From a virus: a stretch of 29,488 bases of DNA. The DNA is taken from positions 1 to 29,488 of the IMG/VR virus record IMGVR_UViG_3300035698_011798; one strand, 5' to 3'. This document shows positions 504-16,184 of this stretch, one piece after another; within the stretch, counting starts at the first letter, position 1, and each line of letters opens with the position of its first letter. The position numbers were made by a program, and so were the translations under genes. The notes under the pieces were generated by a model that saw only the letters and a list, made by a program, of their open reading frames with translations, was not told the origin of the DNA and did not search any database.

Positions 504-608
504 TTATGTTACTATAAATATACCTAAGTTGACCACGGCCACATACACAATTCCTGCTGCAGCCACCATAGCCACGATTGTAATTATTTCTTGTATAATT
601 TCTTTCAT
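504..608 (-). CDS. Single-span small membrane protein, 34 aa
   Basis: Starts MKEIIQEIITIVAMVAAAG and continues as one hydrophobic helix to the C-terminus, so most of the protein is a membrane segment with a short charged N-terminus. AAGGGA lies upstream of the ATG and the gene begins 12 bases after the stop of the 620-724 gene. Very small hydrophobic proteins beside a phospholipase could be holin- or pinholin-like, or modulators of a membrane enzyme. That role is inference; no family was recognised. Confidence 0.6.
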   Translation of the reverse strand: MKEIIQEIITIVAMVAAAGIVYVAVVNLGIFIVT

Positions 609-619
609 ATTAGTATCCC

Positions 620-724
620 TTATCGCGCCAATAGTTCTACAAAACAGATTCCCCAGAATATTACTAGTAGTAGGGCTCCGTTACTTACTAGGTAGTTTTT
701 AAAGTGTTTCATTAGCTCTAACAT
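620..724 (-). CDS. Single-span small membrane protein, 34 aa
   Basis: MLELMKHFKNYLVSNGALLL, then a hydrophobic run to a short ELLAR tail: one transmembrane helix with a basic N-terminus, so N-in is likely. The ATG at 724 has AAGGAG at ideal spacing. An in-frame ATG 27 bases upstream has its purine stretch immediately adjacent and is less likely. It follows the patatin gene by 78 bases and is read in the same direction. Function unknown; a lysis-related role is only suggested by size and neighbours. Confidence 0.65.
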   Translation of the reverse strand: MLELMKHFKNYLVSNGALLLVIFWGICFVELLAR

Positions 725-781
725 TTTCTTTCTCCTTGTGTCGGGAACCATCTCCCTATACTTAATAGTAGCACACCAATA

Positions 782-807
782 GTTAATAAACCGTTAACAA
801 AATTAAA
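782..807 (+). repeat. Copy 1 of a 26-base GTTAAC-pair element
   Basis: Two GTTAAC-like half sites 12 bases apart followed by AAAATTAAA. It matches the copies at 4578-4603 (same orientation) and 3391-3416 (opposite orientation) at roughly 20 or more of 26 positions. This copy spans the stop codon of the patatin gene and lies upstream of the two small membrane-protein genes. A protein-binding site is the simplest reading. Confidence 0.5.
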
Positions 808-1753
808 CTTTTCCTTCTAGTGCATATTCAGTCCAGACTTGTAGCGTATCCCGGAAATCCTTAGTCATATTTTCAGCGTCCAGGAGCAGGTTGTGTAGGT
901 TCTCTTGCCCTATACTATCTAAAGCACCGTCCGAGTGATGTAGGAACGGTTTAACGCGGTAATGGCCCGCATCTATTAGAGCATCAACACCAGCTTCTAC
1001 AGTTTTACTGGTACCGTCCATCAGAATATGGATAATCGGACCTAGCCAACTGATTTGCCACCAACTAGCCACATCATTACCATCATAAATAACATCCTTA
1101 CTCCCAGTACTCAGGGATAATATACGTATGTCCTTACGGTTAATGGCTGGATAGAGGTCTAGAGCATATACGATGGCCTCCATACTAGGATTGTTTGCGA
1201 ATACGCCACCGTCCAGGAAGGAATGGTGATATTTAATGCTAGGAGCTTCCTTCACGTGCGATTCGACCATATGAGGAGCGAAGTACGTCGGGGCTGCACT
1301 GGTAGCGGAGGCAGCATGTGCCATCGACATCTCAAGGCGGTCCATTAATAGTATGTCATCAGGCCAATGAGAGCATAAACGGTACGTAAGGTCTCTAGAG
1401 ATGTCATATGCCGTCACTAGAGTGGGTATTTTAGCAGCGCTGAGTGGCGTCGTACCGAAAACCTTCTTTAGGACCTTGTATTTGGAATCGGCATCATATT
1501 TAGGACCTCTAGGCCACCAATTACGTTGAAACATCTCGTTAGCGTCTTCTAAGTAGATATCCATCACTTCTTGGGCTGTAAATTTAGATAATCCTAGAGC
1601 GATAATCCCCCCAGTAGAAGTCCCGGTGACTACATCAAAAATCTCATGACATCTCTTACCAGAGGCCTTCTCTAACTGGATGAGGAAGAATAGTGGAATG
1701 AGACCTCTGATTCCTCCCCCATCTATAGATAATACTTTTATTGGACGCTTCAT
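803..1753 (-). CDS. Patatin-like phospholipase
   Basis: A 316-residue patatin-family lipid acyl hydrolase. Visible are the oxyanion loop DGGGIRG (residues 11-17), the nucleophile elbow GTSTG with Ser46, and DGGVFANNP with the dyad Asp181, so the Ser-Asp dyad is intact. These enzymes cleave acyl chains from membrane phospholipids. There is no signal peptide, so a cytoplasmic face of action is likely. The ATG at 1753 is preferred because GGAG lies 9 bases upstream and it overlaps the stop of the 48-residue membrane protein as ATGA; an in-frame GTG 12 codons upstream has no good ribosome site. The neighbours are a membrane-anchored protease and one-helix membrane proteins. Possible roles are lysis, envelope remodelling or interference with host signalling; the sequence does not decide. 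Confidence 0.93.
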   Translation of the reverse strand: MKRPIKVLSIDGGGIRGLIPLFFLIQLEKASGKRCHEIFDVVTGTSTGGIIALGLSKFTAQEVMDIYLEDANEMFQRNWWPRGPKYDADSKYKVLKKVFGTTPLSAAKIPTLVTAYDISRDLTYRLCSHWPDDILLMDRLEMSMAHAASATSAAPTYFAPHMVESHVKEAPSIKYHHSFLDGGVFANNPSMEAIVYALDLYPAINRKDIRILSLSTGSKDVIYDGNDVASWWQISWLGPIIHILMDGTSKTVEAGVDALIDAGHYRVKPFLHHSDGALDSIGQENLHNLLLDAENMTKDFRDTLQVWTEYALEGKV

Positions 1754-1896
1754 TTGAGGTTTCTCCACATTCCATATAATAATATACACCAGGCTAGGAG
1801 GAGGACACCGCCAATGACAGGTGCTCCAAGGGACAAAATGTTATTAAAAAGATCTACGGCAATAAATTCTCCGATTATTTCTATTTCATGATCCAT
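1750..1896 (-). CDS. 48-aa single-span membrane protein coupled to patatin
   Basis: MDHEIEIIGEFIAVDLFNNI, then a hydrophobic span at about residues 24-43 and a basic MWRNLK tail. The acidic N-terminus and basic C-terminus predict N-out/C-in by the positive-inside rule. AAGGAG lies 9 bases before the ATG. The stop overlaps the patatin start as ATGA, so translation of the two is probably coupled. The geometry fits a partner that brings the lipase to the membrane, or a holin-like protein. No family was recognised. Confidence 0.75.
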   Translation of the reverse strand: MDHEIEIIGEFIAVDLFNNILSLGAPVIGGVLLLAWCILLYGMWRNLK

Positions 1897-1988: not shown

Positions 1989-2867
1989 TTAATTAGACCC
2001 AAATAACTCTAGTATAGTAGTGAAAACTTCTTCAACCAGTTGCTCATCATCTTGATTGTTATTAAACCGCACAACTTCGTTTATACCTTGGTAGTTTAGA
2101 ATATTATTATATTCCCTTGTTTCTAGATCTAGCATCCTAAAATCTTTTAGCATACCCACGTTTAGAAAGTTCTGTTCGTTATCCTCTATAAACATGCCTC
2201 CTCGTAATGAACGTTCTGTCTGTCCTGTCTCACTCATCAGTAGTCGGTAGATGATCATATTGAAGTTCATAATATCATTACGGATCTCTGTAGCTATCTT
2301 GTAGTTAAGAGGTCCTTTGTAGGATGTCTGCATACTATGGAATAGGACTAAGGCACCTTTACCGGATACCCGAACATCCCCGAGGGCGTATAATACTGCG
2401 CCGGCTGAGAAAGCTATCCCGTCGTTCACTGTGACGATGACACCTCCATAGGATTGAGCAACAGTCGTGAACTCTAGGAGCTCTCCTGCACTACCTCCCG
2501 GTGTGTTGATGTGTATCACTAGAGGAGCTGTGTTACCTTCCCGGTTCATCTTCTCTAGTTCGCGAGTAGCTTTTAATAGGGAACCAGGTACAATAGCTCC
2601 GAAGACGTTGATTTCGTAATATACGTCGCCCCTCACGTCTGTTTTTATCTCGATGATGCTATCAGCAATCGATGCCCAGGGACTTAGTCCGGCAGTAAGT
2701 GTCCGGTCCGTCGGGGCCTCTAAGATCATATCACCAGTCACTTTAGGAATATTATTAGATTTATCTTGTCCGGTTAAATGTCCGGTTACAAGAGCGAAGA
2801 ATAGGAAGACACCAATCACGGTGGCTAGCATCATTAGTATGGGATGGTTCTGTTTAAAGTTTATCAT
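1989..2867 (-). CDS. Membrane-anchored ClpP/SppA-fold serine protease
   Basis: A 292-residue protein with an N-terminal hydrophobic anchor (about residues 10-29), a polar linker, then a ClpP-type crotonase-fold domain. Visible are INTPGGS (120-126), the nucleophile region GIAFSAG with Ser154, LVLFHS with His177, and a downstream FIEDNEQNFLNVGML stretch in the place of the ClpP aspartate region. The Ser-to-His distance of 23 is close to the 25 of ClpP. ClpP itself is never membrane-anchored, so this resembles SppA/NfeD-type membrane proteases in layout. The domain probably lies outside the cytoplasm, which is inferred. Start: TAAGGAGAAATGACATG, with an almost ideal promoter directly upstream. 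It is the first gene of the leftward unit. Confidence 0.8.
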   Translation of the reverse strand: MINFKQNHPILMMLATVIGVFLFFALVTGHLTGQDKSNNIPKVTGDMILEAPTDRTLTAGLSPWASIADSIIEIKTDVRGDVYYEINVFGAIVPGSLLKATRELEKMNREGNTAPLVIHINTPGGSAGELLEFTTVAQSYGGVIVTVNDGIAFSAGAVLYALGDVRVSGKGALVLFHSMQTSYKGPLNYKIATEIRNDIMNFNMIIYRLLMSETGQTERSLRGGMFIEDNEQNFLNVGMLKDFRMLDLETREYNNILNYQGINEVVRFNNNQDDEQLVEEVFTTILELFGSN

Positions 2868-2888: not shown

Positions 2889-2917
2889 ATTATATAATAA
2901 ACAAGGTGGTAAGTCAA
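2889..2917 (-). promoter_or_regulatory. Strong sigma70-type promoter, leftward
   Basis: Minus strand: TTGACT (2912-2917, 5 of 6) and a perfect TATAAT (2889-2894) with a 17-base spacer. Transcription would start near 2882, giving a very short leader before the ATG at 2867. It should drive the membrane protease, the 48-residue protein, patatin and the small membrane proteins. Confidence 0.85.
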
Positions 2918-3024: not shown

Positions 3025-3127
3025 CCATCGACATATCAGAGGGCGCCCCAAGTATATATTATATATATTATTATATATCTTATAGGTTATATATATACTA
3101 TTACATATTTTATATATACATCGATGG
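3025..3127. repeat. A/T tract enclosed by an inverted repeat
   Basis: CCATCGA (3025-3031) and TCGATGG (3121-3127) are exact inverted repeats about 90 bases apart, and both continue inward into TAT-rich sequence. Between 3051 and 3120 almost every base is A or T in alternating order. Such a tract melts easily and can form a cruciform, as in many replication origins. No coding sequence lies here. Confidence 0.5.
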
Positions 3128-3128
3128 C

Positions 3129-3340
3129 CTAAATAGTCCCTAACGGTATCTTATACCAGATATATACTACATCTTAGACTAAATAGTACCTTTAGGGAGT
3201 ATATCTATAGTTAAGTATACTTTCCTTTTAAGTCATAGTATACTAAATAGTAAGCTATAGTTATCTATAGTATAGGTTTTTTTCTTTTTAAGATATAGTC
3301 TACTAGATAGTATACTATGTAGTGTATCTATAGTAAGAAG
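3129..3340. repeat. About 60-base degenerate direct repeats (candidate iterons)
   Basis: CTAAATAGT occurs at 3129, 3179 and 3243, and CTAGATAGT at 3303. TATCTATAGT occurs at 3202, 3262 and 3325. The blocks 3221-3280 and 3281-3340 align from their first base (TTTCCTTTTAAG against TTTCTTTTTAAG), so the period is 60 there and 50-64 elsewhere. GTATACT is also embedded three times. The stretch has no gene. It may bind a replication initiator or a regulator. Confidence 0.6.
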
Positions 3341-3471: not shown

Positions 3472-3570
3472 ATGTTTAACGTAATATTTATTTCAGTAGC
3501 AAGTGTATCGCTAGTAATAATAATACTTGCAATTACACTAAATACCGTGCTAAGCTTAATTATAGTCTAA
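3472..3570 (+). CDS. 32-aa hydrophobic membrane peptide
   Basis: Almost the whole protein (MFNVIFISVASVSLV onward) is hydrophobic and uncharged, forming one membrane helix. AAAGGAG lies 7 bases before the ATG. It is the first gene of the rightward unit, 13 bases before the next. The function is unknown; peptides of this kind may act on the host membrane or on a membrane enzyme. Confidence 0.6.
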   Translation: MFNVIFISVASVSLVIIILAITLNTVLSLIIV

Positions 3571-3583
3571 GGGAGAGAGACAG

Positions 3584-3763
3584 ATGAACAGAATAGTAGA
3601 AGACCTAAAAAGAGCAATGAGAGAACTAGAAGAAGACGAAGAGAAGTTTGAAAACGACTGGGCCGTGCAAAAACTAAATGAGGAGATCAAAAATGAATAC
3701 CGCGATACTGATAATGTTCATAATATCCTGCATCCTAGTAGGTTCCTTGGCGAAACAAGATAA
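3584..3763 (+). CDS. Small charged helical protein, 59 aa
   Basis: The N-terminal part (MNRIVEDLKRAMRELEEDEE) is a strongly acidic amphipathic helix; the C-terminal third is polar. GGGAGAGAGA precedes the ATG. The 3' third overlaps in another frame with a small hydrophobic reading frame at 3693-3791. Not recognised; a small early phage protein of unknown role. Confidence 0.6.
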   Translation: MNRIVEDLKRAMRELEEDEEKFENDWAVQKLNEEIKNEYRDTDNVHNILHPSRFLGETR

Positions 3764-3791
3764 AGGAGACGATGACGATGACACTCGATAA
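3693..3791 (+). CDS. Nested 32-aa membrane or lipoprotein-like peptide
   Basis: This frame is shifted by one base relative to the 3584-3763 gene and overlaps its last 71 bases. GAGGAG lies 7 bases upstream of the ATG. The product is a short hydrophobic segment with IISC at residues 10-13, resembling a lipobox, then an acidic tail (KGDDDDDTR). Overlapping small lipoprotein frames recall Rz/Rz1 spanins, but the enclosing gene here has no membrane anchor. Expression is uncertain. Confidence 0.45.
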   Translation: MNTAILIMFIISCILVGSLAKQDKGDDDDDTR

Positions 3792-3885
3792 AATAATAGA
3801 CGATATGATCCTGTACGCAGACCTAAGCTACGAGGATGATGAAGACCTAGTAAAAATGATTAACTACTACGTGATGGAGGTTTAA
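3772..3885 (+). CDS. Small acidic protein, 37 aa
   Basis: MTMTLDKIIDDMILYADLSY followed by an acidic helix. It has AAAGGAG before the first ATG and an alternative ATG two codons on. It overlaps the end of the nested peptide frame by 20 bases. There is no membrane segment and no recognised family. It is part of the chain of tightly packed small rightward genes. Confidence 0.55.
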   Translation: MTMTLDKIIDDMILYADLSYEDDEDLVKMINYYVMEV

Positions 3886-4056
3886 ATGACTAATATGGAT
3901 AGACTAGAGACGATCTACGGAGAGTTTAACAAAAGACTAATGGAGGAACTCAGTCTAGCGATACACGAAGGGGACTTCGAGCTAGTAGACGCACTGAGTG
4001 CTGTACATGATAACTTAACTGAAACTGTATACCATTATGTGGAGGGTACAAAATGA
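3886..4056 (+). CDS. Small acidic helical protein, 56 aa
   Basis: MTNMDRLETIYGEFNKRLME and onward reads as two acidic helices. GGAGG stands 5 bases before the ATG, and the start follows the preceding stop directly (TAAATG). Its stop overlaps the next start as ATGA. Not recognised. The overlaps on both sides suggest coupled translation. Confidence 0.65.
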   Translation: MTNMDRLETIYGEFNKRLMEELSLAIHEGDFELVDALSAVHDNLTETVYHYVEGTK

Positions 4057-4229
4057 GAAACGTCATAGACTTCAACAGAATACAACTAGACCGAGCAATC
4101 GCTAACTGGAAAGAGACGGGGAAACTAGAATATAATACCAACAACAAAGCCCTAGTCGGGATGATCGAATCTTATTTTATGGTACTGAGCGACCTAAACG
4201 CCCCCCATGGAGGGTGCGGTGAAAAGTAA
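4053..4229 (+). CDS. Small hypothetical protein, 58 aa
   Basis: MRNVIDFNRIQLDRAIANWK and onward is mostly helical and carries no membrane segment. It overlaps the preceding gene by ATGA and the following gene by about 11 bases. The tail ends HGGCGEK. No family recognised. Confidence 0.6.
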   Translation: MRNVIDFNRIQLDRAIANWKETGKLEYNTNNKALVGMIESYFMVLSDLNAPHGGCGEK

Positions 4230-4482
4230 CCTTGTCTCATTCAGAGCCCTCAAGATCGCAGACATACTGGTCAGGATGTTAGATGAGGTATTTGTACTAA
4301 CAGATTACCTCACAACCGATTCCAAAGAGATACGGGTAAAGGTAAAATACCGGTCCACATCGACACGTCGCCGAGTTACGTACGAAGTTGTCTTAGACCT
4401 CGACACGTTAGATCTGGTGAAGGTAGAAATCTTTGAAATAAATAGAAAACTTCTGTTGACAGAGGAGGACTTAATATGTTAG
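4219..4482 (+). CDS. Hypothetical protein, about 87 aa
   Basis: The start is doubtful. GTG at 4219 has GGAGGG a few bases upstream and overlaps the previous stop. An ATG four codons earlier (4207) lacks a ribosome site. The protein has a helical N-terminal half (RALKIADILVRMLDEVFVL) and a beta-rich second half with basic patches (KVKYRSTSTRRRVTYEVVLD). It overlaps the next gene by 7 bases. No family was recognised. Confidence 0.65.
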   Translation: MKSNLVSFRALKIADILVRMLDEVFVLTDYLTTDSKEIRVKVKYRSTSTRRRVTYEVVLDLDTLDLVKVEIFEINRKLLLTEEDLIC

Positions 4483-4662: not shown

Positions 4663-5229
4663 ATGAAAAAAGGATTAATACCACTAATCATACGTCTGGA
4701 AGGCTCTAAGAACCGCTTATATAAAGATCCTATCGGACTATATACTATTGGAGTAGGGCACTTAGTAATCAAGAATGATAAGAACTTAATCAAGGTCCTC
4801 GGAACCGATGATATTAGTAAACTACAAAGAATTAAAATGAAAGAGTCCCAGGTAGCCGAACTACTAAGTTTGGACCTAGAGATTTTTATAGAAGATGTTA
4901 CAAAACGGGTTAAGACAGTAAAGAACTTAGAACAGCATCACTTAGATGCCCTCATAAGTCTTTCCTTTAACATAGGTAGAGGAGCTTTCAAAAGGTCTAC
5001 ACTACTTATGGAACTTCTAACAGACAAGCCTTTTAGCAAAGTCGCCCAACAATTCGTACGGTGGAATAAAGCCGGCGGCAGGGTATTACCAGGATTAGTC
5101 ATCCGTAGAATAGTAGAGACTCATTTGTTCCTAGGTGCTAAGGAATTGATTCCCTCACTCACGAAAAAACTTAAAGCTAGGCACGAAGAAGAAGTGATAA
5201 CACTATTGAAAACTTACTGGAGTAGCTAA
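4663..5229 (+). CDS. Endolysin, T4-type lysozyme (GH24)
   Basis: A 188-residue lysozyme that cuts the glycan strands of peptidoglycan. The catalytic set of T4 lysozyme is present with identical spacing: Glu13 (RLEGS), Asp22 (YKDPIG) and Thr28 (YTIGVGH). The later NIGRGAFKRSTLL and WNKAGGRVLPGLVIRR stretches are typical of the family. There is no signal or SAR anchor, so release through a holin would be needed. AAAGGAG precedes the ATG. It lies next to ClpX in the early/replication half, not in the virion block. Confidence 0.93.
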   Translation: MKKGLIPLIIRLEGSKNRLYKDPIGLYTIGVGHLVIKNDKNLIKVLGTDDISKLQRIKMKESQVAELLSLDLEIFIEDVTKRVKTVKNLEQHHLDALISLSFNIGRGAFKRSTLLMELLTDKPFSKVAQQFVRWNKAGGRVLPGLVIRRIVETHLFLGAKELIPSLTKKLKARHEEEVITLLKTYWSS

Positions 5230-5230
5230 T

Positions 5231-6487
5231 ATGGGAAATAACACAATGTACTGTAATAAATGCACTAAACGAATTATTCCATCAGCGGGATACTATCAAG
5301 ATCACGCTAAGTTGACTATGTGTTGGAACTGTCTGTCAGGACATCACCCAGAACACCTAGACTTCGACTGCATCGTTTCTCCTTTATTAGACGAAGGTCC
5401 TTCCGGTCCAGAAGCCATGTACTACAGCGAGGCACAAGACCACTACAGAATGTCTGACGATTTGCTTGTTAACCTACACCAAATGTTAGGCAAGCCGGGA
5501 CTAAAAGGAAAGTCAGGACCTAGTAGAGACGAAATGCAGCTTCTACCTATTGTCACTCCTGCTGAAGTAAACGAATTTCTAGGAGACTATGTGGTTGGTC
5601 AAGACCTGGCCCGTAAGACACTTTCAGTAGTCGTATCTAATCATAGAGCCATCTGCGAGTATAACCAAGATAGCCCAAAGAATAAGCTTAAGAAGAGTAA
5701 CCTTCTGATTATGGGTCCCTCAGGAACCGGTAAGACCCTAATGATCGAGAAGGTCGCCGAGTTTCTTAATGTCCCTTACGTATCGACTTCCGCCACCGAA
5801 TACACAGAGTCAGGATACGTTGGTAAAGATGTAGAGCAAGTTCTTCAGATGTTACTAGACAACGCCGGAGGCGACCATTCAATTGCTGAGAATGGGATCG
5901 TATTTATTGATGAGGTCGATAAGATTCTATCTGCGACTGATAAAAGCGGTAGAGATGTCAGTGGAGCCGGAGTTCAACACGCTCTACTACGCATGGTTGA
6001 AGGTGGTATCATTAACATAGCAGACCCCTCACTACGAGGACACGCAGGTCCAGGTAAGCCATTCGACACATCTAATGTATTATTTATCTTTGGCGGGGCT
6101 TTCACTAACCTACGCGAGTCTAAAGAGAAGGTTAAAGAACAACTAGGATTCACCGCAGTTGATAAGAAAGAAGTCTCCACACAGGTGACCTCTGACGATC
6201 TTATCCAAGCCGGACTCATCCGAGAGTTTGTAGGACGCGTACAACACATCGTAACTACAGAGACTCTAACTGATGAGAACCTACTAGATATCCTAACCGG
6301 GCCTAAAGACAACATTATTGCTCAACATGAGAAGCTGATGAAGTTCAAGAAATTAGGTAACATGGATCTTAGAGACCCTAAGTTCTTACAGAGCCTAGTT
6401 GAAGAAGCTAAGAAGATTGGGACTGGTGCCCGCGGACTAAAAGTGGTGCTAGAGCAGAAACTTCTTGACGTTTACTATGAAGGATGA
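5231..6487 (+). CDS. clpX: ClpX-like AAA+ unfoldase
   Basis: 418 residues, close to bacterial ClpX. An N-terminal C4 zinc site (Cys8, 11, 31, 34) corresponds to the ClpX substrate/adaptor domain. The AAA+ core has Walker A GPSGTGKT (162-169), the GYVG pore loop, Walker B with Asp227-Glu228, the ClpX signature SGAGVQHALLRMVEGG, and sensor-2 GTGARGLK. A loop with LGF at 305-307 stands where bacterial ClpX carries its IGF tripeptide for docking to ClpP, so ClpP interaction is likely. A ClpP gene lies 5.4 kb downstream on the same strand. GGAG stands 9 bases before the ATG. Substrates are unknown; phage or host regulators and defence proteins are possibilities. Confidence 0.93.
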   Translation: MGNNTMYCNKCTKRIIPSAGYYQDHAKLTMCWNCLSGHHPEHLDFDCIVSPLLDEGPSGPEAMYYSEAQDHYRMSDDLLVNLHQMLGKPGLKGKSGPSRDEMQLLPIVTPAEVNEFLGDYVVGQDLARKTLSVVVSNHRAICEYNQDSPKNKLKKSNLLIMGPSGTGKTLMIEKVAEFLNVPYVSTSATEYTESGYVGKDVEQVLQMLLDNAGGDHSIAENGIVFIDEVDKILSATDKSGRDVSGAGVQHALLRMVEGGIINIADPSLRGHAGPGKPFDTSNVLFIFGGAFTNLRESKEKVKEQLGFTAVDKKEVSTQVTSDDLIQAGLIREFVGRVQHIVTTETLTDENLLDILTGPKDNIIAQHEKLMKFKKLGNMDLRDPKFLQSLVEEAKKIGTGARGLKVVLEQKLLDVYYEG

Positions 6488-9308: not shown

Positions 9309-9821
9309 ATGAACAAGGCAACGCAAGTGCATTCAGTTTTAATACCTACCGATGAGGAATTCGGCGGTGTATCGCAACAGGTTGTGCTATTCCATGGTGA
9401 GGACTTCATCACTATTAAGGGATACGCTGCTACATGGGACATAGACCTACAGGGAGACCAAGTAGCCCGAGGTGCCTTCAAAGCCTCGTTGGCAGCAATG
9501 CTGGGAGCTAGATTAGCTGTACCGATGTTCGTCGATCACCAATACCAAGTTTGTGTAGGGGTATTTGAAATAGAACACATGTTAGAGGACGATAAAGGAC
9601 TCTGGGTGGAGGGTAAGATTAATAGGCAGTTAGGTGTAAGCCCACTCATCTCCAAGCTACTCAGAGAGCGTGTTTTAATTGGTCTTTCATATGGCGGCCT
9701 GATTGATAACCTGGTTCATCTTAATGGTGTCAGAGTATTCACGGAGCTGACCCTTATGGAAATTAGTATTACAGCCGATCCACAGAACACTGATTCGTTG
9801 ATCTCGGTGATTAGCGACTGA
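9309..9821 (+). CDS. HK97-type prohead protease-like protein
   Basis: 170 residues with the usual order of the HK97 prohead protease (peptidase U35) family: IKGYAATWD and ARGAF, PMFVDH with His77, an EDDKGLWVEGKI strand pair, LIGLSYGG with Ser127, and an ELTLMEISITADPQN closing motif. Such proteases clear the scaffold or delta domain during capsid maturation. Its place is odd: it is read with the replication genes directly before DNA polymerase, more than 6 kb from the nearest virion gene and on the opposite strand. A role other than capsid maturation is therefore possible. Confidence 0.8.
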   Translation: MNKATQVHSVLIPTDEEFGGVSQQVVLFHGEDFITIKGYAATWDIDLQGDQVARGAFKASLAAMLGARLAVPMFVDHQYQVCVGVFEIEHMLEDDKGLWVEGKINRQLGVSPLISKLLRERVLIGLSYGGLIDNLVHLNGVRVFTELTLMEISITADPQNTDSLISVISD

Positions 9822-11629: not shown

Positions 11630-11884
11630 ATGCCTTATATAACTAAAGAACTACGAGAGACTGTACTAGAAGTGGGGCCGACAGGCTCCGGCGAACTAAA
11701 CTACGTACTAACTAGTGTTGTTAAGGACTATGTTAATACACATGGTCTCTGCTACAACTCTATTAACGATGTCTTAGGTGCCTTAGAAGGTGCCAAATTA
11801 GAGTTCTACAGAAGGGTAGCAGTACCTTATGAGAACAGTAAGTTAGCCTTAAATGGCGACGTATACAGCAAAGAGGGAGAATAA
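11630..11884 (+). CDS. Conserved small phage protein, 84 aa (DUF6899-like)
   Basis: [20 protein letters not shown] begins a protein with [31 protein letters not shown] and [14 protein letters not shown]. This pattern is that of a short conserved phage/bacterial family of unknown function (I believe DUF6899). It lies between DNA polymerase and ClpP with only short gaps. A GGGGAAAG site precedes the ATG. Confidence 0.75.
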
Positions 11885-11885
11885 C

Positions 11886-12473
11886 ATGAGAATTTTAGTT
11901 CCGACAGTAATTGAAAAGACTTCAGCAGGCGAACGTTCGTACGATCTATACTCTAGATTATTAAAAGAACGTATCATCTTCCTAACTGGAGCGATTGACG
12001 ACGACGTGGCTTCAATCATATGTGCACAGCTTCTATTCCTAGAGGCTGAGGATCCAGAGAAAGATGTACAACTTTACATCAACTCTCCTGGCGGGGCTGT
12101 AACAGCGGCTATGGCCATGTTAGATACTATGAACCATATTCGTCCTGATGTATCGACAATATGTATTGGTCAAGCGTGTTCCGCAGGATCACTGCTATTA
12201 ACCTGTGGAGCCTCTGGTAAGAGATTCGCTCTTCCTAACTCTAGGATTATGATTCACCAACCACTAGGTGGAGCACAAGGCCAAGCAACCGATATTGAGA
12301 TCCGAGCCAACGAAATCCTTCGTATGAAGAAGGACCTAAACGAGATCTATGCCAAGACTACCGGGCAGAAGATTGGGGCTATAAACAAGATCATGGAACG
12401 TGATACTTTCATGAGTCCAAAAAAAGCCTTGCAGTTCGGACTTATAGATGCTATAATAGAGAAGAAAGCGTAA
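11886..12473 (+). CDS. clpP: ClpP, ATP-dependent protease proteolytic subunit
   Basis: 195 residues, extremely similar in layout to bacterial Clp[47 protein letters not shown] with Ser99, [18 protein letters not shown] with His124, and ERDTFMS with Asp173. The distances between the triad residues (25 and 49) equal those of E. coli ClpP, so the enzyme should be active. The protein starts at the position of the mature bacterial N-terminus, so there is no propeptide. ATG 11886 has GAGGGAG upstream. It probably works with the phage ClpX (5231-6487) or captures host ClpX. It looks like a gene taken from a bacterium. Confidence 0.96.
12429..12457 (+). promoter_or_regulatory. Promoter inside the end of clpP
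   Basis: A perfect TATAAT (12452-12457) with TGC extension and TTGCAG (12429-12434, 3 of 6) 17 bases upstream. Transcription would begin near 12464, shortly before the primase-helicase start at 12485. Confidence 0.6.
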
Positions 12474-14892: not shown

Positions 14893-15429
14893 ATGAAAAT
14901 AGGTATGTTTGGGGCAGCGTCCCCTTTTCTAAAGGAAGAATACAAGAAACTGGCATATGATGTAGGCCGCCTAATCCGAACTAACGGGGCAGGTCTCATC
15001 ACAGGTGCCGGAGATACAGGCGCTATGGGATCTATCATGGATGGTTTCACAGCCGAGGACCATGAAGGAGAAGCGGTGGGGATCATAACCCATCGTCTCA
15101 TACGCATGGAAGGCATCCACCCAAAACTGAATACTCTGTATAAGGTGGAGAGTATGGATACTCGTAAACACATGCTGATTAACCTGAGTGACATGCTAAT
15201 TACTTTACCAGGCGGATTCGGTACGATGGATGAGCTGATGGAGGTCATAACACTTAAACAGTTAGGGATCTCTAATAAAACAGTCGTTGTAATAGATATA
15301 GAGGGAGGGCCCTTCTCAACCGCTTTGAAAGCACTGATTGCAATGTTCTTGGAAATAGGTACCGTGGATCCTAAGACAGCACATGGTGTCCACTTTATGA
15401 CAATAGAACAATTCGAGGAGCTACTCTAA
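14893..15429 (+). CDS. LOG-family nucleoside 5'-monophosphate phosphoribohydrolase
   Basis: 178 residues with the Rossmann-like LOG fold: an N-terminal FGAASP strand-turn, LITGAGDTGAMGSIMDGF, the DTRKHM motif (Arg91, Lys92) and the signature PGGFGTMDE (106-114). Members cut the N-glycosidic bond of nucleoside monophosphates to free base and ribose 5-phosphate; plant and bacterial members activate cytokinins. In a phage it may alter nucleotide pools or supply a base. Its stop overlaps the next start (TAATG), which links it to the diphosphohydrolase-like gene. Confidence 0.9.
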   Translation: MKIGMFGAASPFLKEEYKKLAYDVGRLIRTNGAGLITGAGDTGAMGSIMDGFTAEDHEGEAVGIITHRLIRMEGIHPKLNTLYKVESMDTRKHMLINLSDMLITLPGGFGTMDELMEVITLKQLGISNKTVVVIDIEGGPFSTALKALIAMFLEIGTVDPKTAHGVHFMTIEQFEELL

Positions 15430-16135: not shown

Positions 16136-16148
16136 CTCACTGAGTATA

Positions 16149-16184
16149 GGTCTAAGGGTATCCCAGTATCCTTAGGCCTTTTTT
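16149..16184 (+). terminator. Intrinsic terminator for the rightward unit
   Basis: GGTCTAAGG pairs with CCTTAGGCC (one G-U pair) around a 12-base loop and is followed by TTTTTT at 16179-16184. It closes the replication transcript 33 bases after the last rightward gene. Confidence 0.85.

Follow-up and report, generated by a model that had tools for sequence, protein, structure and literature searches.

A divergent ClpP-fold protein with an N-terminal membrane anchor in a podovirus that also encodes a canonical ClpP

The window analysed here, the whole 29,488-nt stretch of IMG/VR record IMGVR_UViG_3300035698_011798, carries at 1989-2867 a gene for a ClpP-like protein with an N-terminal hydrophobic segment, and a lipase gene lies behind it on the same strand. 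The question raised by this locus is what such a protein does in a phage that also encodes a canonical ClpP and a ClpX, and whether its work is tied to the lipase, as an earlier note on this DNA had proposed.

This 29.5-kb record covers part of the genome of a podovirus, a small tailed phage. Its tail and head genes are similar to those of HTVC010P-type pelagiphages: tail tubular protein B is about 30% identical, and tail tubular protein A and the internal virion protein also resemble that type. The same phage is covered by two further, nearly identical IMG/VR contigs from other samples. L047 (99.9% identity to the window) adds 3.7 kb at the right end, covering the capsid and scaffold genes and the end of the portal gene, while L068 contributes the portal gene and the C-terminal half of the terminase. 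The features on which the analysis is based are as follows.

504..608, minus strand: hydrophobic ORF of 34 aa, predicted
620..751, minus strand: hydrophobic ORF of 43 aa, predicted
803..1753, minus strand: patatin-like phospholipase, CapV-like; start most likely the ATG at 1753; Pfam Patatin 3e-21
1750..1896, minus strand: predicted single-helix membrane protein of 48 aa
1927..1957, minus strand: RNA hairpin, 14 bp with a 3-nt loop, in the gap that follows the ClpP-like gene and precedes the 48-aa ORF
1989..2867, minus strand: membrane-anchored ClpP-fold protein of 292 aa; ATG start, ribosome-binding site AAGGAG; anchor at about residues 9-31, linker at about 32-70, ClpP domain at about 71-250
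2889..2917, minus strand: sigma-70-type promoter, TTGACT-17 nt-TATAAT, 11 of 12 consensus positions (a consensus match only)
4663..5229, plus strand: phage lysozyme (endolysin), adjoining ClpX; Pfam 3.3e-30
5231..6487, plus strand: ClpX-like AAA+ unfoldase with an N-terminal Cys4 motif and Walker motifs
11853..12473, plus strand: canonical ClpP; Pfam 2.6e-81; TIGR00493 309.5 bits, above the cut-off of 308.6

The A+T-rich divergent region at 3050-3340 contains direct repeats (a 57-nt pair and CTAAATAGT units) and palindromes, and is possibly an origin or a regulatory site. On the replication arm, a DprA/LOG-like protein is encoded at 14893-15429 (plus strand; weak match to PHROG 23875).

A search with ClpX led to a distant podovirus, IMG/VR 3300023548_000116 (L015/L058), whose proteins are 49% (terminase), 43% (portal), 39% (an 83-aa head protein), 39% (lysozyme) and 38% (ClpX) identical to those of the window phage. 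It encodes a 230-aa homologue of the ClpP-like protein (27% identity). In both genomes the ClpP-like gene lies on the packaging arm near the divergence point, and the other arm carries ClpX and lysozyme opposite it. This layout is known from this one relative only. The packaging and structural genes of the window phage are oriented leftward, and its minus-strand genes at 1-2867 are expected ahead of the terminase on the same arm, across a short unsequenced gap, since the ClpP-like gene, terminase and portal of the relative are all on one contig (L058).

Fold and catalytic residues

The product of 1989-2867 matches Pfam PF00574 (CLP_protease) at E 1.6e-8; its score of 35.1 bits exceeds the cut-off of 20.2. 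In the AlphaFold monomer model, the core at residues 71-180 reached a pLDDT of 82-96, and the structure comparison (VIA-align) aligned 160 residues with ClpP at Z 15.6 and rmsd 3.7. The best 50 structure matches listed were all ClpP, with no SppA or NfeD entries, which is not taken to mean that such folds do not match. The alignment supplied to AlphaFold contained canonical ClpPs, so the fold model is not independent of them; a single-sequence model reproduced the anchor together with the initial strands and helices, was poor beyond the anchor and is too weak as sole support.

The earlier note had read the protein as a second crotonase-fold serine protease with Ser154 and His177, and this reading is confirmed. 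Ser154 falls in the ClpP Ser column, shared by 17 of the 18 aligned phage proteins, and His177 in the His column, shared by all 18. The Asp column is occupied by Q232 or, when the protein is aligned pairwise with its homologue, by G224; D229 is close to it, lies in a low-confidence region of the model and could not be placed. As judged from these alignments, the third residue of the triad is not conserved at the ClpP position. The product is a second, very divergent ClpP-like protein beside the canonical one.

A catalytically weak or dead ClpP-fold scaffold, which would oligomerise at the membrane and bind proteins such as a host envelope factor but leave them uncut, fits the non-conserved Asp and the poor modelling of the stretch in which it is expected. 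Nevertheless, Ser, His, PGG and the GxAxSA context are kept in the window protein and its homologue despite their 27% identity, and we regard such a scaffold as unlikely, although it survives better than the other alternatives.

Searches with peptide patterns in IMG/VR and GTDB genomes confirmed no close relatives of the protein, and none were found among plasmids. In GenBank phages, only three weak matches were obtained, and the two records examined among them (H1 and H2) contain ClpP-like ORFs without an N-terminal anchor, and a search with the alignment of query and homologue yielded soluble phage ClpPs only. The homologue itself matches PHROG 1827 at 9.5e-18, and 226 phage records match it weakly. 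Relatives collected through the 83-aa head gene, among them L068 and mostly short fragments, carried no further ClpP-like gene, and no ClpP match was present on the 40-kb contig behind L070. PADLOC gave no defence match for the protease, and a literature search of partial coverage found no description of a phage ClpP anchored in the membrane. Among the ClpP-like ORFs of the fetched viral loci, an N-terminal hydrophobic leader that lies within the coding part occurs in the window protein, its homologue and one protein of L055 only. The latter (3529-4344, plus strand) has a signal-peptide-like leader, and Ala in the catalytic Ser column of the alignment with Ser one position further; a second ClpP is encoded next to it on that contig.

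Anchor, topology and the ClpX of the phage

The N-terminal segment is the sole strong hydrophobic segment of the protein (Kyte-Doolittle mean 2.67 over 19 residues), and residues 9-31 form a helix in both AlphaFold models. The helical tether that had been proposed as a distinction from true ClpP was therefore upheld, and both fold and anchor are well supported. The charge bias flanking the anchor is weak, with K5 before it and mixed charges after it. The homologue carries seven lysines and no acidic residue ahead of a moderately hydrophobic stretch (1.31), a leader that would represent a typical N-inside export start. An anchor preceded by a positively charged N-terminus, clearest in the homologue, favours a domain outside the cytoplasm.

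The structural match begins at about ClpP residue 21, and the axial-loop segment, ClpP residues 1-20, has no counterpart, its place being taken by the linker and anchor. The first 20 residues of ClpP are the axial loops that contact the unfoldase. Moreover, the Tyr of the ClpP docking cleft is replaced by His in the window protein and by Asn in the homologue. The divergently transcribed ClpX of the phage has the tripeptide LGF where the IGF ClpP-docking loop belongs. Together with the canonical ClpP, this ClpX could plausibly form a normal soluble ClpXP, to which the anchored protein would be an addition.

These data bear on a tethered ClpXP, in which the ClpP domain would lie on the cytoplasmic face and the phage ClpX would feed it membrane proteins, as an FtsH-like machine. 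ClpX adjoins the ClpP-like gene divergently in both phages, docking tripeptides (LGF and IGF) are kept in the ClpX proteins, and the charge bias at the N-terminus of the window protein, taken alone, is weak enough to allow this orientation. However, the many lysines at the start of the homologue speak for N-inside with the domain outside, the axial-loop segment and the docking Tyr are lost, and ClpX can rely on a canonical ClpP. The ClpX-coupled version on the cytoplasmic face is thus disfavoured, and we consider it rather improbable; a membrane-anchored ClpP ring with docked phage ClpX, stripping host membrane proteins as a counterpart of FtsH, appears less probable again.

Improbable as well, and slightly less likely than the tethered ClpXP, is an accessory role in lysis, with the protease cutting envelope proteins late in infection and so aiding the endolysin arm. 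The lysozyme lies opposite the ClpP-like gene in both phages, and a soluble ClpP-like gene is found between the spanins and holin/endolysin of the T5-like Serratia phage Slocum (L062, 2432-3103, plus strand). On the other hand, the protein of the T5-like phage lacks an anchor at its N-terminus, and the sigma-70-type promoter of the window gene suggests early rather than late expression.

Promoter, neighbouring lipase and head genes

The promoter, which the earlier note had called excellent, lies at 2917..2889 upstream of the ClpP-like gene, and its strength as a sigma-70-type match suggests early expression by the host polymerase. The proposed operon was only partly borne out: all of these genes are on one strand, yet the ClpP-like gene is set apart from the rest by 92 nt in which the 14-bp hairpin lies. 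The 94-nt stretch with the hairpin has a folding energy of -27.7 kcal/mol (z -3.25). The hairpin is a candidate attenuator, processing site or terminator without a U-run, and the ClpP-like gene may therefore be processed or attenuated separately from the lipase. A similar, strong hairpin is present at 16148-16179 between the convergent arms; the two possibly represent the terminator or processing-site type of this phage.

The three very small membrane proteins expected in this region are present as hydrophobic ORFs of 48, 43 and 34 aa. The stop codon of the 48-aa ORF overlaps the patatin ATG (ATGA), and the two look translationally coupled. In the patatin, the motifs GGGIRG, GTSTG and DGG are all intact. 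Among curated models, the CBASS cGAMP-activated phospholipase NF041079 comes closest to the patatin (4.5e-47; 160.8 bits, below the cut-off of 200), PADLOC matched it to a phospholipase effector (1.6e-57), and its best PDB relative is CapV, a CBASS effector. No cyclase was seen within the window; the protein may act as a lytic lipase or bind cyclic nucleotides. No export signal was found in its sequence, and since it is also CapV-like, protease and lipase would probably be on opposite sides of the inner membrane. Related patatins were found in Wolbachia WO phages and a megaphage, and no ClpP lies beside the patatin in the one WO neighbourhood examined.

The common strand and order, the intact lipase motifs and the small membrane proteins between and after the two genes speak for the envelope-directed protease-plus-lipase cassette of the earlier note, but the comparison of gene order does not support it and gave the outcome that the note itself had named as refuting. 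In 3300023548_000116, three small ORFs are followed by the ClpP-like gene, a 67-aa ORF, peptide deformylase and PhoH, and no patatin or lipase occurs from the ClpP-like gene to the terminase, a stretch that is fully sequenced. Both contigs are fragments, and a lipase may lie elsewhere in the genome of the relative. The intervening hairpin, the absence of an export signal in the CapV-like lipase and its distribution in other phages also argue against the cassette, which we regard as very unlikely. In the reading that we prefer, the adjacent lipase would be an exchangeable neighbour and not a functional partner of the ClpP-like protein.

The head module consists of portal, 83-aa protein, scaffold and major capsid protein, in this order. 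A homologue of HK97-type prohead proteases (57.1 bits with TIGR01543, below its cut-off of 59) is encoded separately at 9309-9821 (plus strand) among replication genes, the head module of this phage being of the scaffold type. A ClpP-related head maturation protease, the name given by the best PHROG and NCBIfam matches of the 1989-2867 product (NF045542, 27.6 bits against a cut-off of 120), is the least probable reading, as that product carries a membrane anchor, the interval between portal and capsid holds the 83-aa and scaffold proteins and no protease, and a separate HK97-type protease is present.

Proposed role and comparison with known systems

The reading we prefer, with a probability of roughly 45%, is that the gene encodes a ClpP-fold serine peptidase that is anchored in the inner membrane, faces outward from the cytoplasm, works without an unfoldase and remodels the envelope during takeover. 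We infer its periplasmic topology, peptidase activity, substrate and role as follows. The N-terminal helix would act as a signal anchor placing the ClpP-type domain outside the cytoplasm, where the Ser154-His177 pair could cleave proteins or peptides close to the membrane, whether from the host envelope or from the phage itself. No unfoldase would be needed, by analogy with SppA and NfeD1b; a stand-alone peptidase is suggested because the protein has no axial loops and would lie away from ATP, and it would not be the partner of the phage ClpX, for which the phage supplies a canonical ClpP. With its strong promoter of the host type, the gene would be the first of the packaging arm, and its product would probably serve host takeover or envelope remodelling.

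This outward-facing peptidase is supported by the divergent layout opposite ClpX and lysozyme, which two phages have in common even though their terminases are just 49% identical. It is weakened by the non-conserved Asp, the weak charge bias, the moderate hydrophobicity of the homologue, the single relative and the ClpP-guided model. Phage ClpP homologues are common and those examined are mostly soluble; the protein described here is an anchored form that accompanies a phage ClpX and a lysozyme in a phage with a canonical ClpP as well. Such a protein suggests that the phage controls proteolysis at the cell envelope and, if confirmed, would give a new handle on host membrane remodelling by podoviruses.

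With ClpP (S14, PF00574) the protein shares the core fold, the Ser and His columns, the PGG motif and the helix after His. It differs in its membrane anchor, its linker of about 40 residues, a C-terminal extension, the missing axial-loop segment and the Asp that is not in place, at about 20% identity. The phage 'ATP-dependent protease' families PHROG 1827 and 5410 likewise have a phage-borne divergent ClpP fold, often near PhoH, but the five members examined are soluble and have no N-terminal hydrophobic segment. The ClpP-related head maturation protease is the best-named family by profile, and differs in score, anchor and gene position as set out above.

NfeD1b and SppA resemble the protein in having a membrane-linked ClpP-type domain without an unfoldase. 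In NfeD1b, a ClpP-like domain is followed by transmembrane helices and an NfeD domain, whereas the window protein has its one strong hydrophobic segment N-terminally, no NfeD C-terminal domain and no NfeD Pfam match. The ClpP protease domain of NfeD1b is located at its N terminus (PMC2636767). The NfeD1b_N model gave no match for the window protein and stayed below the cut-off for the homologue. Unlike SppA, the protein has no tandem SppA domains, and S49/SppA profiles gave 15.7 bits against 155 (TIGR00706) and no Pfam S49 match. We file it as a variant of the ClpP fold rather than as a ClpP, an NfeD or an SppA.
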